Below are positions 38,483 to 63,705 of a DNA stretch of 64,000 nucleotides, piece after piece (the stretch's first letter is position 1; the number at the start of each line of letters is the position of its first letter). The notes beneath the pieces were generated by a model. The model did not search any database, was not told the DNA's origin, and worked only from the letters and a program-made list of their open reading frames with translations. Origin of the DNA: a virus. The translations under genes were made by a program, and so were the position numbers. The DNA is taken from positions 1 through 64,000 of the IMG/VR virus record IMGVR_UViG_3300027816_000098; one strand, given 5' to 3'.

Positions 38483-41400
38483 CTATACTGGTTTTTGGCT
38501 ATACTCTTCCCAAATTGTTCCAGTAATTACAACTACGCTATCAGAACTTACATTTAGTTGTGAAGTATCATCTAAAACTACACTAGCAACTCCAAAAGTA
38601 GACTCATATATATTTGTTCCATCAACATTGATCCTAAGTTCTTCTACTTGTCCTTCTATGCTTGACCAGTTTTGTGCGTCTTCCCAGGTTTGCCATGTTG
38701 TTTCTGTGCTAATGTCAACCCAGTCATTTAAGATAAACTCTCTTCCTACTGCTTCATTTGACTTTCTATAAAAAGCCATATTATTAACCATGAGCCCCTC
38801 ATATACTTCAAATTGTCCAACATAGTTTGCTAAATCTTCACCCTGATCAAATACTATAAGTATTGAATTCCAAGTTAAAGGGGTAATGTAGATATCATCA
38901 ACTAACTTACCATTTTGATAAAATATTAAATCATTAGATACATTTATATTATTTTCGTCATATACCTCTACCTTGCCTCTAAGGCTATTTGATTCTGGGG
39001 ATAGGTATAGGGTGTATGTTTTTAGGTATGTTTTTATTTGTGCAATAGCCTGGGTAGGCTCTATTGTATAGTCCTTGTTGTAGAATCCCCAAAATTGAAC
39101 TCCACCTAGCAAATACTGGCTTGCTTGCTGTTGGTTTATTGGAACAGTTATTCCCCTTGTTGCAGATGAATCATATGGTAATACGCTTATTCCTGAGTCT
39201 GCAGTTGTATACATGTATGACGTAGAGTCTTTATAGACAACAAATGGATTTTTATTTTTGTAAACATAAAATTTATCATATCTACTAAAAGGATATAGTT
39301 TGTATCCATCTGGGCTACTTATTGAATAAAAAGAACTTTCATCATATGCTAGCGATGAAAGAGACATTTTTTTAATTTGGATAGGATTATTTATCAAGCC
39401 ATTAGTTTGTAGTTCAATATGGACTGTTATGTAGTAGTCTTTAAAGTCAACTAGTTCTTTGGGTGGGAATATAACAGTTCTATCCATTACTTCGTACTTT
39501 GTGGTATTAAAATCTTGAATAGTTTCAGAATCAAAATCTAGTACCCTGTCTCCATTAATTCTTTGTATAAATTCGTATTGAGAATATGGTATCTTTCCTA
39601 CATCTGCAAAATTTTGTAATGTTACATATGACTTTATAAAGTAGTTTTCCTTAGAATAGTTTTTAAATGCTAAGTCTAGTTGTGGGTCTGTTAAGTAAGT
39701 TGTAGATGCTGATGGACCTCCTCCGTCAAACTCTAGGTCTACATCATCTACCTCTTTGTCATAGAATCCATCATCGAACCAAAATTTAAAATTAGAAGAC
39801 TGTGATGATCCTCCATCTAGATAGTATTGATCTTTTTTTAAAATTGGAGATGACGGTGTTTCTATGTTGTATTGTAATAAATCTAAGTCATAGTATGAAT
39901 TTTTATTTCTGTCTTCTACGTATCTTCCAAAATATGATAGTGGAATTGAGTCTTCCCAGTATCCAGAGGCACCTATGTCTAACAACAAACTGTCTGACAA
40001 TCTTTGAGGATAAAATGTATAGTTTCCTATATAATATTTCAAGTATAAAGAATCTAGTGTTTGGGTAAAGAATCCACTAGCGGTAATATATTCACTTAAA
40101 TCTTTTTGAGTATACAGTGCATTATTAAAGGTAATTCTATGTATCTTTCCACTATATACAGAATTTTGTGTACCGCCCAATCTCAAAGATAGGTTTTGTG
40201 GATTAAAGAAAAAGTTTTCTATAGTTGCAGCATACTGGGTATTTATAGTATTAAGATCAATTCCTGCTATAAATGTTGAAGATGCTGAAAGAGAAAGTTG
40301 TCCTATTTTGGTAGAGTTAAAGTAGTACTCTAAGCCAGAGTTACTTACCGTTACCTCAAACGTATTGCTGTTAAAACTGTTAGAAAATGTCATCAAAACT
40401 TCTGGGCTTGCTGAAAGTGATGCTGGTGACTCAAATACTCCAAATATACTTCTTATAGGACTATTCAAGAAATTTAAATTAGAAAAGTATATGCTAGAAA
40501 CTATGTTGTTATAAGATGAGTCTGGTCTTAGTTTAATAAATGGATATTCATCATCTTGTATATTATAGTTATCAGTTAAGAATGTATTTAACTCTACCCC
40601 TTCAAAAGACCCACTTGCTGAAGTACTAAATATGATATCTGGAAGTTGGTAGTTTGGAAACGATAAAAATCTTGATGTGCTACTTAAGTTATTAAAAAAT
40701 CCAGAGTTCCAATCATTCATGTCTGGATAGTTTAATGTAGATGTATATTTAGCGTATGGAAAGTCTAGTTGGAAAGAGTCTCCATTAAAGTTTGTTGCTA
40801 TATTGTTTGCCGCCTCAACACCTTGTGCATAAATAAATCTTCTTTTTGCAACTTGTTCTGGAACTGCGTAAGGGTAAACTGCAAAACAATCAATTTCTAA
40901 ATTAGGAATTTCTTCATCGGAAAAAAAGCCAACATAGTCTTTAGTTATTTCTGGAAAAGAAATACTGTTTTGATCCAAGTCCATTTGTATTACTAAGTCA
41001 CCGTTTATCAATAGTGAGGCATTGGCTATATTGTAAACAAAGTCTATTAGCATTGGTCTATACCATTTGCCAATAAAATAAGACTTTTTGTTTAATCCTA
41101 TCTTAATTATAATAAAATCACTTTCTATATAAATTCCATCTTCTGATGTTAGCGGACCAAATATTTTTATTGGATTTTTTGCTGTGGTATATGCTCGCAA
41201 CCAAAATTCTGCAGTTAATGTTCTATATCTTCCAAATTCATTTAGAAATCCTTGACCTTCAAATGCTAGTGATGGAGTTCTTCCATATAGCGGATGCTTT
41301 AATGATGTAATGTTATTGGATCCAAAAGTAATTGGAAAGTCTAATGTTGAAGAAAGCATTCTATTTTTTTCAACTAGGTAGTATCCATTGTTTGAGTTTC

Positions 41401-42109
41401 CAATACCGTATGAATCTGCTGCAACTACTGTTATTGCGGAAGCAGAAAGAGAAGTGTAATTTGATGCTGATACAATTCCTAAAAGTGCTGCATCTTGTAT
41501 TTGTTCTGGAACCTTTCCAGTTGTTTCGTAGTGAAATAATTCAGACCACTGCCCTACGGAAAGTCCATTGAAAACAATATTATACTCATCACCAAAGTCT
41601 GGGCCAGCATTTAAATATGTAACTCTTACAAATGGATATATGTCTACATTTCCTTCTGGAACTTGCATTGTATGACTTACTTTTTCCCACTTCTCATTTT
41701 CTGGTCCACTGAGAGTGCTAAAGTATAAATTATTGTTATATCTAAATCCTATATCAACAGTCAAAACAAATCCAGAGGTATCGTAGAAAAATGTGTTTAT
41801 AGATATTGTCTTTTTATCTGGATCTAGATTTAACTCTGTATTTATTGGAGATGCTAATGCTGATGCGGATAGTGATACAGACGCTGAGTTAATTGTCATG
41901 TAGTACTTTGGATTTCCAGCCATAGGCTCACCGTATACTGCAGATGGAGAAACTACCTCTTCTAGGTTATAAAGAGACCAATTTGCTAGATCTTTTTGAG
42001 ATGTACTTAATTTAGAAACGTAAGATGCTTCATCATCTAAAGACCATAGTGCTATTGGGTGTTCTGCATAGATTCTAGCAGCGTATAGGTTTGAAACTGA
42101 TTTAGACAT
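38483..42109 (-). CDS. Large structural protein with lectin-like domains
   Basis: A 1208-residue beta-rich protein, dominated by Asn, Ser, Tyr and Phe. Segments such as YRTLTAEFWLRAYTTAKNP and IYIESDFIIIKIGLNKKSYF followed by MLIDFVYNIANASLLINGDL look like concanavalin/laminin-G sandwiches, and at least two more similar blocks follow. ATG 42109 has AGAGG upstream. It lies just upstream of the portal gene, not in the tail cluster, so it could be a head-decoration or whisker-like adhesin, or a fibre placed out of order. No enzyme motif was seen. Confidence 0.6.
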   Translation of the reverse strand: MSKSVSNLYAARIYAEHPIALWSLDDEASYVSKLSTSQKDLANWSLYNLEEVVSPSAVYGEPMAGNPKYYMTINSASVSLSASALASPINTELNLDPDKKTISINTFFYDTSGFVLTVDIGFRYNNNLYFSTLSGPENEKWEKVSHTMQVPEGNVDIYPFVRVTYLNAGPDFGDEYNIVFNGLSVGQWSELFHYETTGKVPEQIQDAALLGIVSASNYTSLSASAITVVAADSYGIGNSNNGYYLVEKNRMLSSTLDFPITFGSNNITSLKHPLYGRTPSLAFEGQGFLNEFGRYRTLTAEFWLRAYTTAKNPIKIFGPLTSEDGIYIESDFIIIKIGLNKKSYFIGKWYRPMLIDFVYNIANASLLINGDLVIQMDLDQNSISFPEITKDYVGFFSDEEIPNLEIDCFAVYPYAVPEQVAKRRFIYAQGVEAANNIATNFNGDSFQLDFPYAKYTSTLNYPDMNDWNSGFFNNLSSTSRFLSFPNYQLPDIIFSTSASGSFEGVELNTFLTDNYNIQDDEYPFIKLRPDSSYNNIVSSIYFSNLNFLNSPIRSIFGVFESPASLSASPEVLMTFSNSFNSNTFEVTVSNSGLEYYFNSTKIGQLSLSASSTFIAGIDLNTINTQYAATIENFFFNPQNLSLRLGGTQNSVYSGKIHRITFNNALYTQKDLSEYITASGFFTQTLDSLYLKYYIGNYTFYPQRLSDSLLLDIGASGYWEDSIPLSYFGRYVEDRNKNSYYDLDLLQYNIETPSSPILKKDQYYLDGGSSQSSNFKFWFDDGFYDKEVDDVDLEFDGGGPSASTTYLTDPQLDLAFKNYSKENYFIKSYVTLQNFADVGKIPYSQYEFIQRINGDRVLDFDSETIQDFNTTKYEVMDRTVIFPPKELVDFKDYYITVHIELQTNGLINNPIQIKKMSLSSLAYDESSFYSISSPDGYKLYPFSRYDKFYVYKNKNPFVVYKDSTSYMYTTADSGISVLPYDSSATRGITVPINQQQASQYLLGGVQFWGFYNKDYTIEPTQAIAQIKTYLKTYTLYLSPESNSLRGKVEVYDENNINVSNDLIFYQNGKLVDDIYITPLTWNSILIVFDQGEDLANYVGQFEVYEGLMVNNMAFYRKSNEAVGREFILNDWVDISTETTWQTWEDAQNWSSIEGQVEELRINVDGTNIYESTFGVASVVLDDTSQLNVSSDSVVVITGTIWEEYSQKPV

Positions 42110-48037: not shown

Positions 48038-48050
48038 CAATAGCAAAAGA

Positions 48051-48070
48051 GGGTAGAATCTCTCCTACCC
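48051..48070 (-). terminator. Terminator after holin gene
   Basis: GGGTAG (48051-48056) pairs with CTACCC (48065-48070) around an eight-base loop. On the minus strand it is followed by TCTTTT and on the plus strand by CCTTTTTT, so it could act in both directions. It begins 14 bases after the holin stop. Confidence 0.7.
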
Positions 48071-48084
48071 CCTTTTTTCTAATT

Positions 48085-48389: not shown

Positions 48390-48704
48390 CTATGATATTT
48401 CTAGGCCGCTTATATGAAAACTTACGTTAGCGTTGCTTGCTACCAGTCTAACGGTATTAGTAGCCACTAGAACCTGTTTTGCATCAATGATAACAGAATC
48501 TCTTGCTGGGACTGTTGATTCTACAGCCAAGCCTATGTTATTAAGAAAAATAGAGTAAGTTCTTGCGGTTGTATCGGAATTATTAACTACAATATTTGTA
48601 ATTAAAGTTGTTGTTGCTGATGGTACTGTGTATACAGTACTTGCAGAAGTAGGAGATACTACTGGTGTAGCACCTCTATATATTACTTTAAATGTATTAG
48701 CCAT
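48390..48704 (-). CDS. Small beta-sandwich tail protein, paralog A
   Basis: A 104-residue, Thr/Val/Ser-rich beta protein. It shares size, order of strands and motifs with the proteins at 53165-53500 and 60398-60730: a short start (FKVIYRGATP), a SASTVYTVPSATTTLI-type strand, then TNIVVNNSDTTARTYSIFL, VPARDSVIID and a closing FHISGLEIS. These look like three copies of one ancestral gene. It is probably a minor virion protein bound to the fibre complex. AGGAGA precedes ATG 48704. Confidence 0.55.
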   Translation of the reverse strand: MANTFKVIYRGATPVVSPTSASTVYTVPSATTTLITNIVVNNSDTTARTYSIFLNNIGLAVESTVPARDSVIIDAKQVLVATNTVRLVASNANVSFHISGLEIS

Positions 48705-50986: not shown

Positions 50987-51274
50987 CTATGACCATGAAT
51001 TAGGGTCTATTTTTAAATGTTCCCAAGACTTTTCACAGCCACATTTTTCTAACTCGTCCCAATCAGTAAAAAATGTAGGAGGTATAAAATTATCTTCTTT
51101 TTCATCATATTTATAGCCTATACCAGCATATATTTTACCCTCTATATCTAAATATGTTTCTACCCATTTTTGATCAGGAAATGATTCTTTCATTTGTTCT
51201 AAAGATTCTCCTGCTAGTATTGCTACTGCAAAATTATTTTCATCAAGTGCTACAAAATTTTTAATATAACTCAT
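50987..51274 (-). CDS. Small fibre-associated protein (YAGIGYxYDE family), paralog A
   Basis: A 95-residue protein of a family common in aquatic phages. Key features are the start FVALDENNFAVAIL, the motif YAGIGYKYDEKEDNFIPP, and an acidic or Trp-containing end. The protein at 57683-57955 is a paralog. Function is unknown; members often lie beside fibre genes and may be chaperones or caps of fibres. It overlaps the glycine-rich gene by four bases. Confidence 0.6.
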   Translation of the reverse strand: MSYIKNFVALDENNFAVAILAGESLEQMKESFPDQKWVETYLDIEGKIYAGIGYKYDEKEDNFIPPTFFTDWDELEKCGCEKSWEHLKIDPNSWS

Positions 51275-52218
51275 TGTCTATGCTCCCATATAATTATCAT
51301 ACCAGTTCCACCTTTTGCTCCTGCTCCACCGCCGCCACCAGTATTAGGAGTTCCAGCAGAACCAGAATTTCCTCCACCACCAAGACCACCAGTGCCTCCA
51401 GTTGTACCTCCACCGCCTCCTCCTCCACCAAAAGCAAGGGCACTAATTGTTTGTGATGCAGAGTTAATAAATGTTGCAGGAAGTGGTGCTTGTAAAGTTA
51501 CTCCAGTTCCACCATTACCACCAGTACTTCCAGAAGCATTTCCTCCTGCTGCTACACAACTTCCACCACCTCCACCACCACTTGCTCCACCAGCACTTCC
51601 TCCGTTAAAGCCGTGTCCAGTAGTCCAATACTCTCCACCATTTAATCTTGCCCAAGAACCAGAAGCACCAGCACCTGCTCCACCGCCAGTTCCAGCAAAA
51701 AATCCAGGATTCCCAGATGGACCACCACCTCCACCACCAGGTGAAATTATAACTGTTGAATCATTTATTGGATTAAGGTTTCCAGCCCTTGGAGTTGCTC
51801 CTACTGTGTAAGCAAAAGTAGATATCCCAATATTACTTCCAAACATTGTTGGACCACCTGCTTCACCATGTGAATTTGTGTCCTGTAATCCATCTCCACT
51901 ACTCTGTCCACTAGCATCTCCACCAAACCCAATACTGTAGTACCATGTTGTAGCATTTCCTACATAATATTTTTTTATATAAGTTACTACTCCACCTCCA
52001 CCTCCACCATGACTTGTGGATCCTCCACCGCCACCACCAATTAATGCAATATCTATAAAATCAACATTTGAAGGTCTTGTCCATGTTCCACTTGTTAAAA
52101 AAAATTGAGCATTTCCTAAACCAACAGAAACATTATTATATTTTGTTTTTAATTTTCCATAAGCAACATTACTATCTAATGAATGTATATATGATGTATT
52201 TATTCTTCTTATACTCAT
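51271..52218 (-). CDS. Glycine-rich adhesin A
   Basis: A 315-residue protein. I start it at ATG 52218, which overlaps the upstream stop as ATGA. The N-terminal 60 residues are a folded attachment region, followed by the strand IDIALIGGGGGGST and many polyglycine blocks separated by short loops, ending in GMIIIWEHR. This plan matches gp38-type fibre-tip adhesins, where glycine-rich segments pack as polyglycine-II helices and the loops bind the receptor. It is one of four such genes. Confidence 0.72.
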   Translation of the reverse strand: MSIRRINTSYIHSLDSNVAYGKLKTKYNNVSVGLGNAQFFLTSGTWTRPSNVDFIDIALIGGGGGGSTSHGGGGGGVVTYIKKYYVGNATTWYYSIGFGGDASGQSSGDGLQDTNSHGEAGGPTMFGSNIGISTFAYTVGATPRAGNLNPINDSTVIISPGGGGGGPSGNPGFFAGTGGGAGAGASGSWARLNGGEYWTTGHGFNGGSAGGASGGGGGGSCVAAGGNASGSTGGNGGTGVTLQAPLPATFINSASQTISALAFGGGGGGGGTTGGTGGLGGGGNSGSAGTPNTGGGGGAGAKGGTGMIIIWEHRQ

Positions 52219-53162
52219 GAAGAAAACCACTCTCTAATTAAAATTACTCCTGTACCGCCAGTTCTACTACCAACAAAGTTAGTTGGAGAAGCACTTCCGC
52301 CTCCACCTCTTCCATTAGTTCCAACGGCATTAACCGTAGCACCACAGTCTCCAGTAACCCCACCACTGCCACCAGCACCACCACCACCATAGCAAACTGC
52401 AGAAAATGGAGATGTTAATGTTATTCCAACTCCACCTGTACCACTACTAGCGGTACCTCCCGCACCACCACCGCCACCACCTGGGCTACTAGTAACAGGA
52501 GCAACACCTCCACGACCACCATATCCTTGCCAAGCAATTTTTCCTGTAGTTGGTTCACCAATTGCATAAGGAATCATTCCATAAGTATTATTAGGATTGT
52601 TTGATCCAGTACCACCAGAAGAACCTAAGCCAAAAGAACCAGCAGAACCACAAGGATGTCCACCTCCACCACCACCAGGGGCTATTAATGTTCTTCTTAA
52701 ATTACTAGGGTCAATACCAGTTAAATTTGCCATAGCAAATGAATTAGAAATTGGAGAAAAAATTGTTGGATTTCCTGCATGTCCCCAAGAATTTCCAGAA
52801 CAATTATCAGTACCATAAACAGATCCAGTAGCATTTCCACCTATAAAAATATACCATGTATTATAGTCCCCAATATAAAATTGGTTAACTTGAATAACAG
52901 CACCACCTCCACCACCAGCACCACGTCTTGGTCCAGATACTGTTTGAGCAGATGATCCACCACCGCCAACTAAAGCAATATCAATAAAATGAACATTTGC
53001 TGGTCTTGAATATGTTGTTGAAGACGAATAGGTAACAACTGATCCAGTTCTAGTAGGAATATATTTAGCAGAAACTCTATTATAAGAAGTATCTATTATA
53101 TTATTTGTAAGGGTATTATTTATACCAGACAACACTGATGCCTGTGCTAGTCTGATTGACAT
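52215..53162 (-). CDS. Glycine-rich adhesin B
   Basis: A 315-residue protein closely parallel to the downstream neighbour: the same N-terminal start (MSIR), the same IDIALVGGGGSSA strand, similar glycine blocks and a closing VILIREWF. The loops between glycine blocks differ more than the frame, suggesting duplication followed by divergence in the receptor-binding parts. It overlaps the next gene by four bases and likely forms a second receptor-binding tip. Confidence 0.72.
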   Translation of the reverse strand: MSIRLAQASVLSGINNTLTNNIIDTSYNRVSAKYIPTRTGSVVTYSSSTTYSRPANVHFIDIALVGGGGSSAQTVSGPRRGAGGGGGAVIQVNQFYIGDYNTWYIFIGGNATGSVYGTDNCSGNSWGHAGNPTIFSPISNSFAMANLTGIDPSNLRRTLIAPGGGGGGHPCGSAGSFGLGSSGGTGSNNPNNTYGMIPYAIGEPTTGKIAWQGYGGRGGVAPVTSSPGGGGGGAGGTASSGTGGVGITLTSPFSAVCYGGGGAGGSGGVTGDCGATVNAVGTNGRGGGGSASPTNFVGSRTGGTGVILIREWFSS

Positions 53163-53164
53163 TA

Positions 53165-53500
53165 TTAACTTATTTCTGTTCCAAAAGCAGATACAGATAT
53201 GGAACTACTTGTTCCAGATGCCATTATATACTTACCAGCCTGCATTGTAATACCTAGTGTCAGTGTCACTGTATCATTTGCAGGCACTGTAGAACCAAAA
53301 ACTATAAATTCAGATGAAGCAGGTGATGTTGATCCAGACACTGCAAGTCTATATGTTTGAGCACTTGCTGTTTGATTACATACTACAATTGTAGAAACAA
53401 TCCAAGATCTTCCAGTAGCAACTGGGCCAGCAATTGTATTATAAGTTGTAATAGCACCAGCAGTATTTGCTTGTCCTAAAATTCTATAATCTACAGCCAT
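53165..53500 (-). CDS. Small beta-sandwich tail protein, paralog B
   Basis: A 111-residue protein, related to those at 48390-48704 and 60398-60730. Shared features are the YRILGQANTAGA start, IVVCNQTASAQTYRLAVSGS, VPANDTVTLTLGITMQAGK and a final VSAFGTEIS. The TAA of the upstream 59-residue gene is directly followed by this ATG. It is likely a minor fibre-associated protein. Confidence 0.6.
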   Translation of the reverse strand: MAVDYRILGQANTAGAITTYNTIAGPVATGRSWIVSTIVVCNQTASAQTYRLAVSGSTSPASSEFIVFGSTVPANDTVTLTLGITMQAGKYIMASGTSSSISVSAFGTEIS

Positions 53501-53680
53501 TTATGCCCCCATCAGTAGAAAAGGATGAATCATGTTATCTACATATTTTTTTGTAGCAGCATCCTGGTCTACTAGTGGTTCTGCTAAACCTTTAACAGTA
53601 CCACCAAATTTACTAATCCTAATTGAAGATACCTCTAAAGGATTATCTGGATCATTATGCGTCAATTGGTCTAATGGCAT
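53501..53680 (-). CDS. 59-residue fibre-attachment-like protein
   Basis: A short gene in the apparent gap between two tail genes. ATG 53680 has AGGAGA upstream, and TAA directly precedes the next ATG. The protein contains GLAEPLVDQDAATKKYVDN, a motif known from the N-terminal parts of phage fibre proteins that is usually found within much longer proteins. It may be a standalone remnant of a fibre or a small connector. Confidence 0.65.
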   Translation of the reverse strand: MPLDQLTHNDPDNPLEVSSIRISKFGGTVKGLAEPLVDQDAATKKYVDNMIHPFLLMGA

Positions 53681-53688
53681 AATATCTC

Positions 53689-56600
53689 CTATGCTTGTGC
53701 TTCAGTCCAGGATAGACGTCCCAATACACTTGCTGAGGCAGAAGAACTTAAGTTTGTTACAACAATTGTAAGTGTGTCTGGTCCATCTGGATAGATATTT
53801 ACGTTAGAGTTTGCTCCTCCACCACCAAGAATAGAGTTACCTAAATCACGAACAGTATTAAGATCAACGCTATTAGCACCAGATCCTACGAAGAAACCAG
53901 CAGTTACCTCACCACCAGATACTGTTGTGGTTCCGCCTGCATAGTTTGCAATTTGTGCAAGGCTTGAGTTTTGTAATGTAGTTACGTTGTTTACAGCGTT
54001 TGTCCATGCAGTTGATGATGATGGTAATCCATTTAATACTGCAGTAATCAAAAGATTTGAGTTTGCTGTGTTAGTTGTAATGTCAAGAGCACGAAGAACT
54101 AACTGCATTCTATTAATAAGTTCTCTTGAACCAAAAGCACCAACAACACCTTGATCTACAGATGGAGCAACGCGAATTGAGAACAATGCTCTAGAATTTG
54201 ATGCTGGAACTCCAGTAAATGTGGTTTGTCCATAAGTAAATACAAGAGACTTATCGTCATCGTATCTACCATCCATAATTACAGAAGTACCCCAGTGACT
54301 AATGGTTGGAGAAAATGTTGGAAACGCTTGCTCTATAACAACTGGAGCGGTTGCTGAATAAGTAAATGATTGACCACTTGTTGCACCCATTGGTGGGAAT
54401 AGTACATCAGTAGGGTTAGAGGACAAAGCAGCATTACTAAATGTTAATGTTGTTCCTGAGATATTTGTTAAGAATGTTCCTTCAGGAAATGCAGCACTTA
54501 CTACTCTTTGTCCGATTTGTAAACCAGACGCACTACCAATTGTTCCGCTATTTGATCCACTTGCAACTGTTACTGATTGATTTGTTGTTAAACCTGCTTG
54601 TGCTCTAGTTAATCCACTAAATGCACTTGCTGAAATTCCTGTATAGTTAATATATTCATACTTGCTTGCATCTCTAATGCATAGAGTTCCACTAGGTGGG
54701 AATCCTGCTGTGCTAGAAACGTTAATAACTGTATCGGAAGCACCTACGTTGCTTGTAATCATGGTTACATATGGAAATGTTTGGCTTTCGTATCTTGCTG
54801 GTAAGTTACCAGAACGCATGTATGCTTCACTATTTAAATTGTTATTTGGTTGTTTGTGTACATACATTACGTTACCACCAGGACCTCTTACGCCCCAACG
54901 AACATAACCTGCACCATACCAAGAATAATCAATGTAGAACATTTGCATCTTAGATAAATCAATATTATATCCAGAAGGACCTGTTCCATCTATTTTGTCT
55001 AAATTAAATTGAGATTGAGGAATCTTTGTATCTACCGTTTTAGAAGCAATAACATGTGTTGCTGTTGCTCCCCTGTAAGATGGACTAATTGTCATAGAAG
55101 TATCAGATGCAATATCTTGTACTTTATAAGATTGTCCACGGATTACAATATAATCACCTGGATTTATTTGCTTTGAAAAGATTGTTGGGAAAGAAGCAAC
55201 TGTTTGAGTTACTGTATTAGAACCATTTGTAACGCTAATTCTACCAGCCAGTTGGAAAGTAGATGATCTTCTTACTGCATAAAGTGTTTGACCATCAAAT
55301 TCAAAGAATAAACCATTTTGTGTATCAAAGATACCTAAACGGTTTTGTGCACCATACCATCCATTTACTGCTACATAGTATGGTCCAGATCCAACGTTTG
55401 AAGATGGACTTGTTGCTGTTGTATATTGGAATGTATTAAAACCAGTAACTGATGTTACTGTAAATGTTCCATTGTAAACAGGATCTAAACATCCACTCAT
55501 AGTGATTGATGTTCCTGGAAGAATGTTATGTTTTTCTTTAGTTTGAACTGTTACCAAGTTTCCTACAGCAGTAACTGAGTCTAGTTGTAGATTTGGTTTT
55601 AGGATTGTACCAGAACTTGCTTGAATACCCTTACCTGATTGATAACGGAAATAACGGCGAGTTTGACGTACCATCTGTTCATAGTTAGAACTTGAATTGC
55701 TTGAGAAAATAACTCCACCATCTGTTGGGCGATGCAACACTTGTCCTTGTGGTAAATTATAAACTGTACCGCTAGCAACTGTTCCAGTTGGTGCTGCTGC
55801 AGCATAGTATCTAAATTGTGTTGGGCTAACAATTGTTGTTACAATAAATGATCCGTTAGGTGCATTTGTGCTTGCTGTTGTTCCAGTTACAACAATTTCG
55901 TTACCAATTGATAATCCATGAGGTACTGTTGTTGTTACTGTAATTTGAGTTCCAGAAAATGTAATTGTTGGAGTTCCACCAATTGCAGCACTTGTATATA
56001 GTGATCCTTGATAAATTGCTGTCTTGTTAGCATCATAAATAGCGGTTACTGCTGTTGTGTTTGCAGCACGTGCTGTATATGTAGCACTATTTGTACCACC
56101 ACCTGATTCAATAATAAAGTTACCATTTGCAATACTTAAGAATGAGTCTTGGACAAATATCGCTGTACCGTTTGCTGGAAATGTTCCAGAGGAAAGAGCG
56201 ACTGTAACCGTTCTAGAGTTAGTGTTCATTGTCATAGAAGAAATATTAGGAATTTGAATAGAAGATGCAAAGGCAAATGGTCTTTGATTGATCATCGATA
56301 AGTTTTCCCACTTAGTAATTTGGGTACCATACTCAAAGTCTGTATCGATAAGTGCTTGTGGAGTTGTTACTCTAAGTTTGTTTGTGGAATCTAAATAAGA
56401 TTCTGCTGGTATAAATTTTTCTTCATTTTCATCAATTACTATTTGTAATTTATCTGTAGAAGACATTGAGGTAGTATTATAATTTAAAACAATAGTTGTT
56501 GATTCTACCATTGATGAGTTAATGGTTGCACTATAGGAGGTTGCTCTTAAGGCAGGGTCAGAGAAATTATATATAACTTGATTAGTAGTAACATTTGTAA

Positions 56601-56703
56601 TTAATGTTAGTTTTTCCCTTGGAATAAATTTATTGTTGATAACAATAGTTTTTGTTGATGGGGTGAAAGTGTAATCTAATCTTTCTAGTACTTCTCTTGA
56701 CAT
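53689..56703 (-). CDS. Large tail structural protein
   Basis: A 1004-residue beta-rich protein. At least two segments have a common pattern: VPHGLSIGNEIVVTGT followed by NGSFIVTTI, and KHNILPGTSITMSGCLD followed by NGTFTVTSV, typical of Ig-like repeats in structural proteins of aquatic phages. Middle and C-terminal parts include WYGAGYVRWGVRGPGG and a helical end. ATG 56703 has GGGAGG upstream. It is probably a baseplate or fibre base protein. Confidence 0.6.
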   Translation of the reverse strand: MSREVLERLDYTFTPSTKTIVINNKFIPREKLTLITNVTTNQVIYNFSDPALRATSYSATINSSMVESTTIVLNYNTTSMSSTDKLQIVIDENEEKFIPAESYLDSTNKLRVTTPQALIDTDFEYGTQITKWENLSMINQRPFAFASSIQIPNISSMTMNTNSRTVTVALSSGTFPANGTAIFVQDSFLSIANGNFIIESGGGTNSATYTARAANTTAVTAIYDANKTAIYQGSLYTSAAIGGTPTITFSGTQITVTTTVPHGLSIGNEIVVTGTTASTNAPNGSFIVTTIVSPTQFRYYAAAAPTGTVASGTVYNLPQGQVLHRPTDGGVIFSSNSSSNYEQMVRQTRRYFRYQSGKGIQASSGTILKPNLQLDSVTAVGNLVTVQTKEKHNILPGTSITMSGCLDPVYNGTFTVTSVTGFNTFQYTTATSPSSNVGSGPYYVAVNGWYGAQNRLGIFDTQNGLFFEFDGQTLYAVRRSSTFQLAGRISVTNGSNTVTQTVASFPTIFSKQINPGDYIVIRGQSYKVQDIASDTSMTISPSYRGATATHVIASKTVDTKIPQSQFNLDKIDGTGPSGYNIDLSKMQMFYIDYSWYGAGYVRWGVRGPGGNVMYVHKQPNNNLNSEAYMRSGNLPARYESQTFPYVTMITSNVGASDTVINVSSTAGFPPSGTLCIRDASKYEYINYTGISASAFSGLTRAQAGLTTNQSVTVASGSNSGTIGSASGLQIGQRVVSAAFPEGTFLTNISGTTLTFSNAALSSNPTDVLFPPMGATSGQSFTYSATAPVVIEQAFPTFSPTISHWGTSVIMDGRYDDDKSLVFTYGQTTFTGVPASNSRALFSIRVAPSVDQGVVGAFGSRELINRMQLVLRALDITTNTANSNLLITAVLNGLPSSSTAWTNAVNNVTTLQNSSLAQIANYAGGTTTVSGGEVTAGFFVGSGANSVDLNTVRDLGNSILGGGGANSNVNIYPDGPDTLTIVVTNLSSSASASVLGRLSWTEAQA

Positions 56704-56710
56704 ATTTTAT

Positions 56711-57643
56711 TTATCCTCCCAAGACTATATCGATTGCTTTGAACGGATATATCCTTGTTCTTGTTGTAGTAGTTGGTCCTGATACTATTGTAGCATCACA
56801 TGTCGCTCCAGTTGGAACAGGTCCTGCAAACGCTATATACCCTTGATCATCTATCCTAAATCCTCTTCTTGGAATCATTGATTGCCAGACGGTTTCAGGA
56901 AAGTCTACTGATTGTATTATACCATTAATTGAAATTGAAAGTTTGAAAGGATTTGTTATTGCTACACTAGCACTTTGATACATTGGTAAAAATCTAGTTT
57001 CTATACCGTTGAATTGTGGAGATAAATCATCTAGTGGTATAATTTCAATTTCTGATTGGGTTACAGAGTCAAATGCTCCAGCAGTTAATTGGATCCTATT
57101 ACTTGCATCATTATAAGTTGCTACTAAGTTAGTATGAAAGCCATGATTGAATAAGCCAGATACAGCATCTTGAATATATTCTACACCCGTTGAATCCTGT
57201 GGAACATATGTTGAAGCCCCGTTGGCTATAGTCAAATATACAGAAGAGGCTGCATTGATTTGATAGGTTGTATTTGCAGAGGCTGAACTAAAGGCTGAAT
57301 TAAAGGCTGTTGCAGATGCACTGGTGATGCTATTATAAATATTTGAAAAGAATGCAGGATCGTCATTGATAGCGGCTGCTAGTTCATTTAAAGTATCAAG
57401 GGTGCCTGGAGAAGCATCTATTAAACTATTTATCTGGGTATCAATATAAGAAACAAGACTTGATGATGCTGATGTTACGAGGGGTATAGCAAAATAATCT
57501 AAACTATTCCATGCTGTAGTTCCATTACCAATTTTAAGTTTATAAGTATCTGTTTCTAGACCTAGTTCACCGCTAGATAAAACAGGATTTTCAAATGTCC
57601 AAGATGCTGCTAATCCTCTACGAACTTGGATTTTAGTTGCCAT
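56711..57643 (-). CDS. Fibre protein with Mtd-N type N-terminus
   Basis: A 310-residue protein. The start (IQVRRGLAASWTFENPVLSS then TYKLKIGNGTTAWNSL) matches the N-terminal domain found in major tropism determinant and many other fibre proteins. A middle coiled coil follows (LDTLNELAAAINDDPAFFSN), then a single copy of the IQDAVSGLFNHGFHTN module also found three times in the tail spike. It probably anchors fibres to the baseplate. GGGTGA precedes ATG 57643, with a promoter further upstream. Confidence 0.7.
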   Translation of the reverse strand: MATKIQVRRGLAASWTFENPVLSSGELGLETDTYKLKIGNGTTAWNSLDYFAIPLVTSASSSLVSYIDTQINSLIDASPGTLDTLNELAAAINDDPAFFSNIYNSITSASATAFNSAFSSASANTTYQINAASSVYLTIANGASTYVPQDSTGVEYIQDAVSGLFNHGFHTNLVATYNDASNRIQLTAGAFDSVTQSEIEIIPLDDLSPQFNGIETRFLPMYQSASVAITNPFKLSISINGIIQSVDFPETVWQSMIPRRGFRIDDQGYIAFAGPVPTGATCDATIVSGPTTTTRTRIYPFKAIDIVLGG

Positions 57644-57664
57644 TAAATTACTTCACCCTTATTT

Positions 57665-57673
57665 ATTATAGCA
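57665..57673 (-). promoter_or_regulatory. Extended -10 promoter
   Basis: TGCTATAAT on the minus strand, 21 bases before ATG 57643, with GGGTGA between. No -35 match was found. Confidence 0.45.
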
Positions 57674-57682
57674 TTACGAGGA

Positions 57683-57955
57683 TTAATTTTCTTTTTCCCA
57701 TAGACAAGTATCTTCATTTAAAATATAATTATCTCCTGGTTTTGGGGGTATAAAAGCATCCCTAATTTCATCATAAGTAAATCCAATACCAGCATAGTTC
57801 TTTCTAATTCTATTATTATAGGAAGTTTGTTTCCATATACCGCCTAAATTTAAATCATTTGCAAGATATTCTTGTCCTCTATGTTCTTGAAAATCAGGTA
57901 TAACTAATACCTGTAAAACAATATTATTTTCATCTATTTGTGCAAAGTGTGCCAT
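57683..57955 (-). CDS. Small fibre-associated protein (YAGIGYxYDE family), paralog B
   Basis: A 90-residue paralog of the protein at 50987-51274. It has the start FAQIDENNIVLQVLV, then NYAGIGFTYDEIRDAFIPPK and the typical end LNEDTCLWEKEN. This copy is closer to the standard family form of aquatic phages. It lies directly downstream of a glycine-rich adhesin, just as its paralog does, hinting at a shared function with adhesins. Confidence 0.65.
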   Translation of the reverse strand: MAHFAQIDENNIVLQVLVIPDFQEHRGQEYLANDLNLGGIWKQTSYNNRIRKNYAGIGFTYDEIRDAFIPPKPGDNYILNEDTCLWEKEN

Positions 57956-57966
57956 ATATTCCTCCT

Positions 57967-59307
57967 TTATCTTGGATACCTAATTATAACTATTCCTGAA
58001 CCGCCAGCACCAGCAACTTGTGTGGTTCCTGTAGACTCATTGCGTCCACCACCACCACCACCTGAGCCTGTGTTTGCTATTCCAGCAACTCCAGCAGTTG
58101 AACCATTACCACCGTTTCCTCCACCATTTGTTCCAGTACCTCTAGTTCCGTATCCAACACCACCACCACCGCCGCCGCCATAGACTGTAGAAGCACCAGA
58201 AATAGAACTTGTTATTCCAGCACCACCTATACCACCATTGCTTGCATCAGCGTTTCCACCAGGGCCTCCTGCACCACCACCGCCTCCAGAATTACGTGCA
58301 TTATCTCCAGGTCCTGGGAATCCATTACCGCCAGCATAACCTTGATTAGTAGTTCCAGAAGCACCTGTTGTATTGCTAGCACCTCCACCGCCAATAGTTC
58401 CGTTAGCACCACCTCCAGATCCACCTGTTGAATTAGCACCAGTGCTTGAATCTTTTCCACGACCACCACCAATTGCTTCAATTGAGCCAAATGATGAATT
58501 GCTTCCAGGATTATTAGCAGCACCTCCTGAACCAACTGTTACAGTATAATTAACTCCACTAGATAAAGATAATGGAGATTCTAATGTACCTCCACCACCA
58601 GTTTGTCCTGTTGTGCATCTAACACCACCAGCACCTCCACCGCCACCGCCAGATACTCCTGGTCCTCCACCACCACCGCCACCTGCAACAACTAAATACT
58701 CAACAGTAAGTGGCACGGTAGGAGTAAATGTTCCATTTCCTTTAAATGTATGTATATAATATCCACCTATCTCTGATACTTCTCCACCTGATGCATATGC
58801 TGATCTTTCTAAAGATTTAATTCCATACAAAGTTGCTGTAGAGTATTGTGGATAAGAACCATTATCTGGTGCTATGGATATAGATGTTATAGCAGCACTA
58901 TCAGACCAAAGTCCAGAAATTATATTTATGGCACCATAAGTAGCATTATTTTCTGCAACATTATCTACACTAAAAGGTTTATAGTTTGAAGAAGTATAGC
59001 CAGTTATATAAATTTCTGTATTATTAAAAACAGATGCCGTTGCATTTCCCATAACAGTTCCAGCATATCTTGCAATAGATCCAGTAGATGCACCAGAGCC
59101 ATCACTAAATAAATATTTATTAGAAAAATTTGATGTAGAGCCATTAAAAGAAATATATTGTCCAGTTGGTGCGTTATAAGTAGTTCTTGCCGACATAACA
59201 ATTTTTAAATCGGTATATATTTGAGGAATGTTGGTAAAATTAATAGAAGCAGCACCTGCAGCACCTACTGTTATAGTTGCTATTTTAGATAATGTTACTG
59301 GAGCCAT
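57967..59307 (-). CDS. Glycine-rich adhesin C fused to a beta-sandwich module
   Basis: A 446-residue protein. Residues 1-165 form a beta-rich module ending in ATLYGIKS, also seen as standalone proteins at 59308-59802 and 59802-60398. From residue 190 it follows the glycine-rich plan, opening with VEYLVVAGGGGGGGPG and ending GSGIVIIRYPR. The fusion shows that adhesin tips and beta modules are exchanged. It is probably the receptor-binding protein of a fibre, with the module as anchor. Confidence 0.72.
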   Translation of the reverse strand: MAPVTLSKIATITVGAAGAASINFTNIPQIYTDLKIVMSARTTYNAPTGQYISFNGSTSNFSNKYLFSDGSGASTGSIARYAGTVMGNATASVFNNTEIYITGYTSSNYKPFSVDNVAENNATYGAINIISGLWSDSAAITSISIAPDNGSYPQYSTATLYGIKSLERSAYASGGEVSEIGGYYIHTFKGNGTFTPTVPLTVEYLVVAGGGGGGGPGVSGGGGGGAGGVRCTTGQTGGGGTLESPLSLSSGVNYTVTVGSGGAANNPGSNSSFGSIEAIGGGRGKDSSTGANSTGGSGGGANGTIGGGGASNTTGASGTTNQGYAGGNGFPGPGDNARNSGGGGGAGGPGGNADASNGGIGGAGITSSISGASTVYGGGGGGGVGYGTRGTGTNGGGNGGNGSTAGVAGIANTGSGGGGGGRNESTGTTQVAGAGGSGIVIIRYPR

Positions 59308-59802
59308 TTATGCCGCCTTTATTCCATATAAATGAAAAGTAGATCCTGAAGTTATATCCCCACTTGACCAAAATATAGTTATTGATGTAATTGCTGAATT
59401 AGATGACCATTTTTGAACTAACATTTCAACTACGTCCGAAGCATTACTTTGGCGTACCAAGTTTGTTTTATGTTTATTAGTTGATGAATAATCTAGAAAG
59501 TTAACTGTAGAAAGAGTTGTTGTTCCAATATTAGTATTACCAGCATAATCAAAAAAGAAATAACCAAGGCTAGTTTGTCTATATGAAGCGGTATCGGTGC
59601 CATTACCTCGAGTGCCAACCATTGAATAATTACTTCCAGTGTCGGAATTTAATCGCATATATCCTGTTACGCCATTTGTAGAAGGTGATGCAGTTATTTT
59701 TAAAACTAAATCAGTATAGGTTTGAGGTATAGAATTAAAAATAACAGAAGATGTTGATGCTCCTAAAGTTATAGATGATATTGGCTCATATGTTGCTGGC
59801 AT
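59308..59802 (-). CDS. Beta-sandwich fibre module protein
   Basis: A 164-residue beta protein with the same frame as the N-terminal module of its downstream neighbour: SSVIFNSIPQTYTDLVLK, a middle part with NSDTGSNYSMVGTRGNG, and a closing FHLYGIKAA. It starts directly at the end of the next gene upstream. It is likely a standalone fibre head that shares an origin with the fused version. Confidence 0.6.
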   Translation of the reverse strand: MPATYEPISSITLGASTSSVIFNSIPQTYTDLVLKITASPSTNGVTGYMRLNSDTGSNYSMVGTRGNGTDTASYRQTSLGYFFFDYAGNTNIGTTTLSTVNFLDYSSTNKHKTNLVRQSNASDVVEMLVQKWSSNSAITSITIFWSSGDITSGSTFHLYGIKAA

Positions 59803-60398
59803 TATATTACTCCATATAAAGCAAAGTTAGAATGCTGAATCCATGAAGCAGAATTTGCTGGTATAAATCTAATTGATGTAATAGCGGCAGTGGAACGCCA
59901 GTTGCCTGAAAATAAAAATAAAAATCCAGATCCATTTTGATCATGCCCAGTTAATGATTTTATTGTTTTAAACTTATTTGTATTTGTATAATCTAAAATA
60001 TCTATTATTCCCACACCAAAAACATTTGCTGTAGAGCCTGCCCCAGGTGTTCTACCAGCCAACATATTTGTTTGATTAATATTTGCAAATGTTCCAGTTG
60101 CAGATAAGTTATTTGAATAAAGTCCATGTTGTGAGTAATTTGATCCTGTATCAGAATTAAAAATCATTTCTGCGTTATTATCGGTATTGCTAGCAAGATT
60201 ACACCTACCAGTAAATCTAAGTTGTAAATGAGTATATGTTTGAGGAATATTACTAAATAAAATTTCACTTGCACCACTTACACCTACAGTGTTAGTAGCA
60301 ATACTTTCAAAATTGCCAGGTGAAGAAGATTGATCCCATGCCCTGGCTCTTTTTGAACCAGTAGTCATTGAAGATGTTTTGAAACTTGTAATTGCCAT
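59802..60398 (-). CDS. Beta-sandwich fibre module protein with N-terminal extension
   Basis: A 198-residue paralog of the previous two: EILFSNIPQTYTHLQLRF, FNSDTGSNYSQHGLYS, and closing FALYGVI. It has an extra N-terminal segment of about 30 residues (FKTSSMTTGSKRARAWD) that may attach it to the fibre. It overlaps its neighbours by one base on both sides, suggesting coupled translation. Confidence 0.6.
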   Translation of the reverse strand: MAITSFKTSSMTTGSKRARAWDQSSSPGNFESIATNTVGVSGASEILFSNIPQTYTHLQLRFTGRCNLASNTDNNAEMIFNSDTGSNYSQHGLYSNNLSATGTFANINQTNMLAGRTPGAGSTANVFGVGIIDILDYTNTNKFKTIKSLTGHDQNGSGFLFLFSGNWRSTAAITSIRFIPANSASWIQHSNFALYGVI

Positions 60399-60730
60399 TA
60401 TACAATTTCAGCCCCGAATACACTAAATGTTAAATTAGCGGATGAAGCATAAACTGTTACAACATCAGAAGCGTCAATTGTTATACCCAATGAAAGTGCT
60501 GTACTGTCGTTTGCACCAACAGTAGTATCGTATGCAATATAGTGACTGTTTGCTAACGATGCACCATTTGGTCTTAGAGCAATACGATATGTTGCACCAC
60601 TTGTGTCACGGTTAGTAATGATTATAGTTGAAACTACAACCTGTGTACTAGCCGAAACAGTATAGATATCAGTAGCGGTTGTAGCACTTGGTGCTGATTG
60701 TGCTAAGATCTTATAATTTTTTGTTGCCAT
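60398..60730 (-). CDS. Small beta-sandwich tail protein, paralog C
   Basis: A 110-residue member of the family at 48390-48704 and 53165-53500: start YKILAQSAPSATTATDIYTV, IIITNRDTSGATYRIALRPN, VGANDSTALSLGITIDASD and closing FSVFGAEIV. It is more like copy B than copy A. The GGGAGG ribosome binding site lies in the end of the upstream micro-gene. Confidence 0.6.
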   Translation of the reverse strand: MATKNYKILAQSAPSATTATDIYTVSASTQVVVSTIIITNRDTSGATYRIALRPNGASLANSHYIAYDTTVGANDSTALSLGITIDASDVVTVYASSANLTFSVFGAEIV

Positions 60731-60733
60731 TAT

Positions 60734-60826
60734 TTACCTCCCTGCTAAAAATACATCTTGTATGCTATCTACGTCTAAATCTTGGACGGTAGTAATTAAA
60801 TCTGCTAATTCTCTTGCTTTACTCAT
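60734..60826 (-). CDS. 30-residue micro-ORF resembling a fibre N-terminus
   Basis: A short frame starting at ATG 60826 and ending at TAA. The protein starts SKARELADLITTVQDLDVD, similar to the N-termini of the fibre proteins at 60863 and 62773 (ARSRDISKVL, TRARDVSKIF). It may be a remnant of a fibre gene that lost its C-terminus, or a small structural tail peptide. AAGGAGA lies upstream at a long distance, and TATAAT lies six bases before the ATG. Confidence 0.5.
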   Translation of the reverse strand: MSKARELADLITTVQDLDVDSIQDVFLAGR

Positions 60827-60862
60827 ATATTAATTATATCTCCTTTAATTTTATATACCCTT

Positions 60863-61477
60863 TTATTTTTTATAACCATAAATTGAAATAGACCCACTCA
60901 TTGTATTTGCAGCACCGTACATTGTTATTCCATCATAAGATGTTGATAAAGTATGAGTAATTCCTGATTCCGATAACCAAAGTTGAGTTGTATCTGCTAA
61001 GAGTTTTGCTGTATACCGAGAAAAACCATAAGTTTGAGATGCAGCAAAAGGATTAACAAGTTCAATTTCAAATAATTCATTACCAGCACTTGCTGTGTAA
61101 TTTAAATCCCAATTTGTTAACGCTGCTCTAGTTCCATATAGTGTTGTACTAGCACCACGAATATTTTGAACACCATAGTTTGATCCAGTTGCGTCACTTC
61201 CTCCTGTACGAAGTCTAAAATACGCACCTTCGTTTGCACTCCAGTTTATATTTGTTAAAATTCTATATCTATCGTAATTAGCACTAAATATGTTATTTAA
61301 AGAAATTGATGAAGCAGTTGCAAAAGTTATTGTACCACTTGTTGATATTGAAGATGTGGCACTTCCTCCAACAACTGATATAGAACTTGGAACAATGCTA
61401 ACTAAGCCTAATTCACTATCTGTAGCCAAGGCGGTACTCGAAGATAAAACCTTTGATATATCTCTACTTCTAGCCAT
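60863..61477 (-). CDS. Fibre head protein with RDISK-type N-terminus
   Basis: A 204-residue protein with an ARSRDISKVLSSSTALATDS anchor, a short linker and a C-terminal beta-sandwich of about 160 residues (VGGSATSSISTSGTITFATA to SISIYGYKK). The C-terminal domain is paralogous to the end of the protein at 61496-62749. GGGGG precedes the ATG. It is probably a small receptor-binding or fibre cap protein. Confidence 0.6.
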   Translation of the reverse strand: MARSRDISKVLSSSTALATDSELGLVSIVPSSISVVGGSATSSISTSGTITFATASSISLNNIFSANYDRYRILTNINWSANEGAYFRLRTGGSDATGSNYGVQNIRGASTTLYGTRAALTNWDLNYTASAGNELFEIELVNPFAASQTYGFSRYTAKLLADTTQLWLSESGITHTLSTSYDGITMYGAANTMSGSISIYGYKK

Positions 61478-61495
61478 TATATTTTATATACCCCC

Positions 61496-62749
61496 TTAGT
61501 TCCTGTATCCATAAATTCCAACTGTGCCAGTAAAATTACCTGCACTATTACCAAAAGTAATTCCTGTTAAAGAAGTAGTTTGATTATATCCACCTACAAC
61601 TGTAAATAATGATGGAGAAGTACCTGATAAATCTCTACCACTTTGACTTACAATTCTTGTGTAATCTGTTGCGAAAGGTTTGAATACATCCATAGATATA
61701 GCAACTGCTCCAACTGCTTGATATAGTAATTCAAAAGATGATTGACCTGATGCTCTACCACCAGTTAAAGTTGTAGAACTTGCTAAAATATTTTGAAACA
61801 AATAATTACTTGCAGTAACATTACCACTTCCATTTCGAAATTGAACTGTAATGTTTTGAGTGCCACTTGTAACGCATTCAAAAATAATTCGATAATTGTT
61901 GTAATTTGTATTAAAGACACCATCTATTGAAACACTAGAAGCACTTGTAAAAGAAACTGCTCCAGTAGAAGAAACGGACCCACTACCACCAGTTACAGCG
62001 ATAGAAGTTGGAACTAACTGAACTAATCCACCAGCAGCCACAGGAGCGTAAGTAGTAGAGGCACTACTTTGACTTAAATATGTGCTACTAGCACTAGTTT
62101 TAGTTAAAAATTGATCATCAGTTTGTGCAATAGTATAAGTATTAGGAACTCTAAAATTCTTTAAGGTATGAATTTGAATAATATCATTTGTAACTACCGC
62201 CTCATCTAGGGTTACAGCAGAACCACTAGTGGCAACATATTCTTCGGGTGCTAATAAAATTCCATTTACATATACTTTTTCTAATCCAGCAGTATAATCT
62301 AAAGTAACTGCATTATCATCTAAGCCAGATATAACTGTGCCAGAGGCACTTACAGTTTTAGTCCATCTTTCAAATGTATTAGCAACTTTATTATCTATTT
62401 GTGCTTGTGTATATGTATTACCTACATTTATATTATTATAGGCTATTACTTCTACTATATACCCCGCTGTTAGGGCTGTAAGACCTGTGATTGTGGTTCC
62501 TGTAGTTGCTGTGTAGTCTGAGTCTCTTGCTAATAGAACACCATTAAGATATACCTGCTCATATCCAGGGGTATAAATTAAAGATTCTCCATTATCATCA
62601 TTACCAGACAAAGATGTTTCTGATCCTACTGCTGTATATTGCCAGCGGGTAGAATTAACTAAATTTCCAGCGGTATTTAAAGGTACCCATTCTGTACCAT
62701 TATAAGCATATAAGGCTTTACCATTTGTTAATATTTGTGCTGATGCCAT
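61496..62749 (-). CDS. Fibre protein with two repeated modules and a beta head
   Basis: A 417-residue protein. The first part repeats a motif twice: LIYTPGYEQVYLNGVLLARD and LDYTAGLEKVYVNGILLAPE, each followed by similar strands (near residues 55-115 and 145-205). The C-terminal beta-sandwich, SIAVTGGSGSVSSTGAVSF to VGIYGYRN, is shared with the upstream-neighbour protein at 60863-61477. TATAAT occurs six bases before ATG 62749, together with AAGGAGAAGG. It is likely a trimeric fibre. Confidence 0.65.
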   Translation of the reverse strand: MASAQILTNGKALYAYNGTEWVPLNTAGNLVNSTRWQYTAVGSETSLSGNDDNGESLIYTPGYEQVYLNGVLLARDSDYTATTGTTITGLTALTAGYIVEVIAYNNINVGNTYTQAQIDNKVANTFERWTKTVSASGTVISGLDDNAVTLDYTAGLEKVYVNGILLAPEEYVATSGSAVTLDEAVVTNDIIQIHTLKNFRVPNTYTIAQTDDQFLTKTSASSTYLSQSSASTTYAPVAAGGLVQLVPTSIAVTGGSGSVSSTGAVSFTSASSVSIDGVFNTNYNNYRIIFECVTSGTQNITVQFRNGSGNVTASNYLFQNILASSTTLTGGRASGQSSFELLYQAVGAVAISMDVFKPFATDYTRIVSQSGRDLSGTSPSLFTVVGGYNQTTSLTGITFGNSAGNFTGTVGIYGYRN

Positions 62750-62772
62750 ATTTTAATTATACCTTCTCCTTG

Positions 62773-63705
62773 TTATGTTAAATACCTAATTATTACTATT
62801 CCGCTACCGCCTGCTGCTCCACCATTCTTTCCTCCACCACCGCCACCACCAGTATTTGTTTGTCCTGGATTTCCAGCACCACCGTTATTTTGTGTATAGT
62901 TACCACCGCCACCAAGTCCACCATTTCCTGTTGTAGGACCTTCTCCAGATCCACCTCCACCACCACCTGCGTAATATGTTGGAGTTCCACTTATAGAAAC
63001 TTGTGTACCATTTCCTCCGTGACCTCCTGAGTTACCAGCAGTTCCTGATGCTCCAGCACCACCTCCACCACCACCTCTATAGTTAACACCGTTTCCACCA
63101 TTATTTCCTTGTCCAGCAGTTCCTGCACCACCATTTGATGTATCTCCACCACCACCTCCACCAGATCCACCACCGTTACCTCCTACGTTATAGTAGTTAC
63201 CTCCATATCCACCACCTAAAGATGTTATAGTAGAAAAAACTGAATTTGATCCATTATTTGATCCAGATGCACCTCCAGATCCTACTGTAACAGTATGAGA
63301 TCCTGCACTTACTGACATTGTAGAATTTCTTAATCCGCCTGCACCACCACCACCACCTCTATCTCCAGCACCACCAGCACCTCCACCAGCAACAACTAAA
63401 TATTCAACATCTAAAGAAACATTTGCTAAGAAAATACCACTTGATAAAAATGTATGAATAGTATAAGCACCAGATGTAGTTATATCTCCACCAGTTGCTT
63501 TTTGTTGAGTAAGTTTAGGAATTCTAAAAGATGATGATCCAAATATTTGCATCACTGGTGCAGAAGCACTTGAAGTATCAATCCACAATCTTCCATTAGT
63601 ATTTGATGAACTAGGAGAAGCAGAAGAAATAACTATTCTAGAATCTAAATCAGAAATACTTGCAGCGGTAGTAAAAATTTTACTCACATCTCTTGCTCTA
63701 GTCAT
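62773..63705 (-). CDS. Glycine-rich adhesin D
   Basis: A 310-residue protein with a TRARDVSKIF N-terminus shared with the protein at 60863 and an attachment-like middle (NGRLWIDTSSASAPVMQIFG). From residue 100 it follows the glycine-rich plan: VEYLVVAGGGAGGAGDRGGG, then many glycine blocks, ending in GGSGIVIIRYLT, like adhesin C. The N-terminus shows how the adhesin is attached in this copy. TATAAT is six bases before ATG 63705, and GGGGAGG lies just upstream. Confidence 0.72.
   Translation of the reverse strand: MTRARDVSKIFTTAASISDLDSRIVISSASPSSSNTNGRLWIDTSSASAPVMQIFGSSSFRIPKLTQQKATGGDITTSGAYTIHTFLSSGIFLANVSLDVEYLVVAGGGAGGAGDRGGGGGAGGLRNSTMSVSAGSHTVTVGSGGASGSNNGSNSVFSTITSLGGGYGGNYYNVGGNGGGSGGGGGGDTSNGGAGTAGQGNNGGNGVNYRGGGGGGAGASGTAGNSGGHGGNGTQVSISGTPTYYAGGGGGGSGEGPTTGNGGLGGGGNYTQNNGGAGNPGQTNTGGGGGGGKNGGAAGGSGIVIIRYLT

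Follow-up and report, generated by a model that had tools for sequence, protein, structure and literature searches.

The four glycine-rich genes of this virus record encode fibre heads of a known kind. The explanation that we consider probable for them as a whole is that they are receptor-contacting heads of the family of cyanophage Pam3 and mycobacteriophage Bxb1, set in an exchangeable fibre array, accompanied by small partner genes (here called T) and probably displayed together. In each head a TNF-like beta core would hold some twelve extended, glycine-rich strands arranged as a lattice, and the connecting loops, which vary between relatives, would contact the host surface. The short N-terminal leaders would stay with their place, and the bodies behind them would be exchanged, duplicated or fused between lineages. 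Two of the heads together, and a third one alone, would each be made from a tightly packed run of a small gene (s), the head or heads, and T, with T serving the preceding head as its assembly or tip partner. All four heads would be made in the same infection, with several of them most likely displayed together.

Four glycine-rich genes in a phage record

The window analysed here comes from a linear record of an uncultivated virus and covers 64,000 of its 66,560 bases. All four genes lie on its minus strand at the places given for them by the sequence-only reading, and are intact and without internal stops. They are called here A (51271..52218; 315 aa from its ATG), B (52215..53162; 315 aa), C (57967..59307) and D (62773..63705; 310 aa). 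Their glycine content is 29.5%, 23.8%, 26.0% and 30.6%, respectively, with runs of four to eight glycines. All of them score above the gathering score (24.3 bits) of the Pfam family PF21722, Gly_rich_2, with 77.3 bits for D, 70.0 for C, 41.8 for B and a marginal 25.2 for A, and C and D are 45% identical over the head. The start of A is most likely the ATG at 52218, which overlaps the stop of B as ATGA, and not the GTG at 52230. Judged by composition, the rest of the 66,560-base record holds no fifth glycine-rich gene of this kind, and overlapping proline-rich antisense ORFs were rejected as artefacts of GGN codons.

It had been remarked that the four proteins have different N-terminal anchors, and they do differ as described: A and B have an MSIR leader in common, C is a fusion of a beta module (betaA, about residues 1-166) to a glycine-rich head (about residues 190-446), and D begins with an ARDVSK-type leader. 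However, the beta module is not unique to C, as it is also found in the neighbouring genes at 59308 and 59802, and the ARDVSK leader of D recurs within the array on genes that are not glycine-rich. The view of these proteins as adhesin-like tips with variable loops was borne out by Pfam, by the model of D and its Foldseek match described below, and by the alignment of relatives, where an entropy and indel map demonstrated that the glycine motifs are nearly invariant and that indels are confined to the intervening loops of varying length. In other searches, tblastn of D against phage records returned no match, probably owing to a low-complexity filter that masks glycine. A pattern search in viral contigs gave nothing confirmed for D and only sister contigs for B, and single-sequence searches of the PDB with C and D returned nothing or only spurious matches.

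The record encodes a portal, a head protease and a major head-like protein, as well as a 2,038-aa tape-measure-like protein, a tailspike and a DnaE-like polymerase. The portal and the polymerase have their closest counterparts, at 52-54% identity, in Streptomyces phages, for example Muntaha and BillNye. Since the genomes of this type of phage are about 127 kb long, the record is probably an incomplete part of a larger actinophage genome, and by the same relationship its host is probably an actinobacterium. The actinophage marker WhiB is absent from the record. The tailspike-like gene (14065-16128), which has a beta-helix and lies far from the glycine-rich array, encodes a further candidate receptor-binding protein. 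It could be the main one, which counts against the glycine-rich heads in that role. A 1,208-aa protein encoded at 38483-42109, between the ribonucleotide reductase and portal genes, matched nothing in PHROGs and nothing above the cut-off in Pfam.

The fibre array and the small gene T

All four belong to an array in which more than a dozen fibre-like genes share one strand. Its upper end is beyond 64 kb and its lower end at 48,045-48,076, where a pattern match on the minus strand indicates a strong terminator-like hairpin with a 14-pair stem, which would end the array transcript. Two tightly packed runs within it have a common plan, in which a gene of about 110 aa (s) is followed by one or more heads and then by a small gene T. 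The first cassette is composed of s (60398..60730), a leader plus betaA head protein (59802..60398), a betaA head protein (59308..59802), C, and a T gene (57683..57955; phrog_7759, of unknown function) whose product is the proposed cognate partner of C. The second is composed of s (53165..53500), B, A, and a T gene (50987..51274; phrog_14370/phrog_7759) whose product is the proposed partner of A and B and whose start overlaps the stop of A as ATGA. The genes of both cassettes are joined by TAATG, as between the first s gene and 59802, by TAAATG or by ATGA, or else lie up to about twelve bases apart. A third paralogue of the s proteins is encoded at 48390-48704. D lies outside both cassettes and has no T behind it.

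Other genes of the array, likewise on the minus strand, encode a fibre-like protein (61496..62749), of which the N-terminal half belongs to the tail fibre family phrog_38058 and which carries a betaB head, and an ARDISK-leader protein that also has a betaB head (60863..61477). Between the cassettes lies a large virion structural protein (VSP, 53689..56703; phrog_5838), which served as the landmark for comparing relatives. A protein with an Mtd_N docking domain (Pfam PF18454, major tropism determinant) is encoded at 56711..57643, also within the array, in a record that holds no reverse transcriptase.

In contigs found through the VSP, T was located directly behind 15 of 54 glycine-rich genes but behind only 3 of 371 other genes, and the s family directly before 14 of the 54 as compared with 15 of the 371. 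For a comparison of greater independence, a second set of 80 loci was fetched with the T profile alone, these being the best-scoring 80 of at least 593, with a profile built from T genes mostly behind such heads and with relatives only partly removed. A glycine-rich gene stands directly before 67 of the 84 T genes in these loci, as opposed to 49 of 545 other genes (odds ratio 40), and when the preceding proteins were clustered at 35% identity, 31 of 38 clusters were glycine-rich. T was also found behind a glycine-rich head in Bellamy, HTVC025P, HTVC023P, CRP-143, CRP-207, Melnitz-3 and S-SM1. This position directly behind a fibre gene is the gene-order trait of fibre assembly chaperones. As T resembles neither Pam3 gp25 nor Mu Tfa in sequence and has no relevant match in the PDB, the suggestion of a chaperone role comes from gene order together with the precedents of Pam3 and the hafunaviruses. 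Pfam had no match for four members of the family or for the two T proteins of the window, and we propose that this unannotated family may be the cognate assembly or tip partner of the preceding head.

There is a sizeable, though smaller, chance that T has no head partner and is a general gene of fibre modules, or that it belongs together with 2OG-Fe(II) oxygenases to a unit that modifies fibres. In S-TIM4, S-SSM5 and S-CAM8, among others, T adjoins oxygenase genes, the glycine-rich gene of these three lying a few genes off, and many T genes without a glycine-rich gene before them have an oxygenase-like one, as identified by sequence motif. Against this, the gene directly before T is glycine-rich in about 80% of cases, compared with 9% for the other genes in the same stretches, and the ends of T and head are often overlapping or touching. 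At the loci of the same three cyanophages, leprecan-like genes accompany the oxygenase genes beside T and may form a fibre-modifying unit with them.

Exchange between lineages and probable display of several heads

In two sister contigs (L005 and L007) in which the VSP is 93% identical, A is kept at 87% and B at 92%, the frame of B being read in L005 only in its second half. The dN/dS values against L007 are 0.24 for A and 0.11 for B, which indicates purifying selection and that both genes are maintained. Diversifying selection on the two was considered and was not seen, nor was it clear in the comparison with L007 that they evolve faster than their neighbours. Against a further relative, L006, A and B drop to about 50%, as do several other fibre-like neighbours, and the block upstream of the VSP has been replaced, with the exception of the Mtd_N gene.

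Elsewhere in the array the leader is kept and the body is not. The ARDISK-leader gene at 60863 has the same leader in L005 (18/20) in front of an unrelated body (z 0.3), and a gene at L084:1895-3079 retains 22 of 24 leader residues in a comparison of sister contigs, again with an unrelated body (z 1.9). The fibre-like protein at 61496..62749 still has 68% body identity to the protein in the same slot of L005. At the place of D a sister contig has a related head (52% in the aligned part), and at the place of C a head that does not have the betaA module. Relatives with full flanks carry from zero to six glycine-rich genes around the VSP, and 19 of these 26 carry none. In three relatives (L008, L009 and L059) a stretch of 20 kb holds five or six such genes, of which three stand in tandem. 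In the actinophage DSL-LC01 (L207:9908-18469), a 2,853-aa protein combines a glycine-rich segment (about residues 180-430) with a VSP-like C-terminus, which ties glycine-rich heads to a structural protein. This protein is annotated as "ALK tyrosine kinase receptor", a label that probably stems from a fold match to ALK. Judged from these sequences, the pattern observed is one of exchange between lineages, with no evidence of phase variation. Such exchange of heads behind constant leaders suggests a means of changing host recognition without rebuilding the tail. Gene conversion among the four was also considered, and no sign of it was found.

It had been suggested that one virion may display several tips or that the phage may switch among them. 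The first suggestion is plausible and is the one that we favour, since genes that are intact, co-directional and closely packed, with purifying selection on A and B, argue for joint expression from an operon-like arrangement. It is possible, though less likely than not, that only one or two of the heads, presumably the conserved A and B, bind the host, C and D being accessory or recently acquired or else decorating the phage head. The retention of A and B at 87-92% in sister contigs in which the places of C and D hold diverged genes would fit such a division, as would the filing of the VSP in PHROGs under "head and packaging" and the many relatives that have no glycine-rich gene around it. However, C and D are intact and their family scores are higher than those of A and B, a sister contig has related heads at both of their places, and C has a T partner of its own.

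Switching fared less well. A phase-variable phage with one type of tip per virion, which switches by inversion, mutagenic retrohoming or recombination between copies, is improbable, even though four paralogous heads are encoded in one genome, an Mtd_N domain gene lies within the array, and phase variation of an adhesin is known from the haloarchaeal virus phiCh1, as cited in PMC8651126. No reverse transcriptase, resolvase or other serine recombinase, or tyrosine integrase was found in the 66.6 kb sequenced, which are probably a partial genome. The sole inverted repeats, none of them useful for inversion, are short stretches of 18-26 nt that match imperfectly (76-89%), and the longest exact DNA word common to any two of the four genes is 20 nt. 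The four genes are moreover intact and on one strand, each with its own start site, and a pattern search found no strong terminator between them. With neither the enzymes nor the repeats for switching, and with no strong terminator to separate the genes, co-display is likelier than switching.

A more far-reaching reading joins these observations into a rack of interchangeable tips, in which leaders of fixed place carry heads exchanged between lineages through recombination, each head has its cognate T, and four tips stand on one particle at once. We put this forward only tentatively and consider it doubtful in its full form. If it is true, T would represent a class of partners of glycine-rich heads that is widespread in aquatic phages and has gone unrecognised until now.

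Fold of the heads and closest known systems

D was folded by AlphaFold from an alignment with 28 related proteins, namely C and others from related contigs; an alignment that mixed C with beta-module proteins was misaligned and was left out of the folding. The model has a pLDDT of about 95 over residues 70-310. Residues 1-60, comprising the leader, were of low confidence and unstructured, with no helix, and thus no docking domain was seen. The sole PDB match of the D model in Foldseek at E<=1e-3 was the Pam3 fibre (7ypx, E 3.8e-5). The model of B was weak (pLDDT 62), and its best Foldseek matches were the Bxb1 tail tip (9d93, E 8e-7), the Pam3 fibre (7ypx, 2.4e-4) and the glycine-rich domain of ALK (7e-4). 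A sequence profile search of the PDB also ranked the Pam3 fibre first (E 3e-4). The antibody linkers among its lower matches point to glycine bias, by which glycine-rich sequence inflates similarity scores. In BFVD, 165 matches were obtained at E<=1e-3, and the named ones listed were mostly "glycine-rich domain-containing protein". As modelled for D and B, the heads are TNF-like plus glycine-rich folds, of which Pam3 gp24 and the Bxb1 tail tip are the nearest solved relatives. Polyglycine-II geometry may be common to all four heads; in the high-confidence stretches of the D model the glycine motifs are mostly without DSSP assignment.

The initial description of these proteins as being of the gp38 type proved too narrow, and it is very improbable that they are true S16-type gp38 tip adhesins capping a gp37-like trimeric fibre: gp38 does have glycine motifs separated by variable loops (PMC6851490), but Pfam gave no gp38 family match at E<=0.1, S16 gp38 was not among the 50 Foldseek matches listed for either model (D or B), the D model has no helical attachment domain, and no gp37-like gene was identified.

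Aquatic phages commonly encode glycine-rich heads, which are annotated by domain name only. Their link to solved fibres, together with the proposed T partner gene, which follows them well above chance, offers a simple handle on receptor-binding genes in uncultured phages. A limited search of open-licence papers found no account of an array in which several heads combine constant leaders with exchanged bodies and are accompanied by a recurring T. Members of the same head family occur in the cyanophages Bellamy, S-TIM4 and S-SM1 and in the pelagiphages HTVC025P and HTVC023P, usually with T adjacent or nearby. These heads are annotated by domain name only or as hypothetical, and the hosts differ from the one proposed here. 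In the haloarchaeal hafunaviruses, HF2 and its relatives, a glycine-rich adhesin is followed by a small gene, as here, and the two track host range (PMC8651126), although a single adhesin gene is the host-range determinant there, as compared with four heads in this record. Neither the HF2 adhesin nor its small protein matches the head or T profiles, and the latter was rejected as a T-like candidate since it is not homologous to T. S16 gp38 (PDB 6F45) resembles the present heads in having glycine-rich motifs, which are polyglycine II in gp38, between hypervariable host-range loops. Unlike them, it is built on another core (PMC6851490), a beta-helix, with a helical domain that caps gp37.

The best match of D in both structure and sequence is Pam3 gp24 (PDB 7ypx/7yfw), which has a TNF-like core, a glycine-rich lattice and variable distal loops; it has been described as a TNF-like domain joined to a glycine-rich one, whose stem is conserved and whose tip varies, and as being assembled with the chaperone gp25 (PMC9608196). 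In Pam3 this assembly chaperone is required, whereas T is not recognisably related to it, and Pam3 has one type of fibre with a long N-terminal helical bundle, as opposed to four heads with short leaders. The best structural match of B, in turn, is provided by the polyglycine-rich tail-tip proteins of mycobacteriophage Bxb1 (PDB 9d93). The genome organisation of Bxb1 differs from that of the present record, but Bxb1 is a long-tailed actinobacterial phage, as the present one probably is, and its tip contains more than one such chain.
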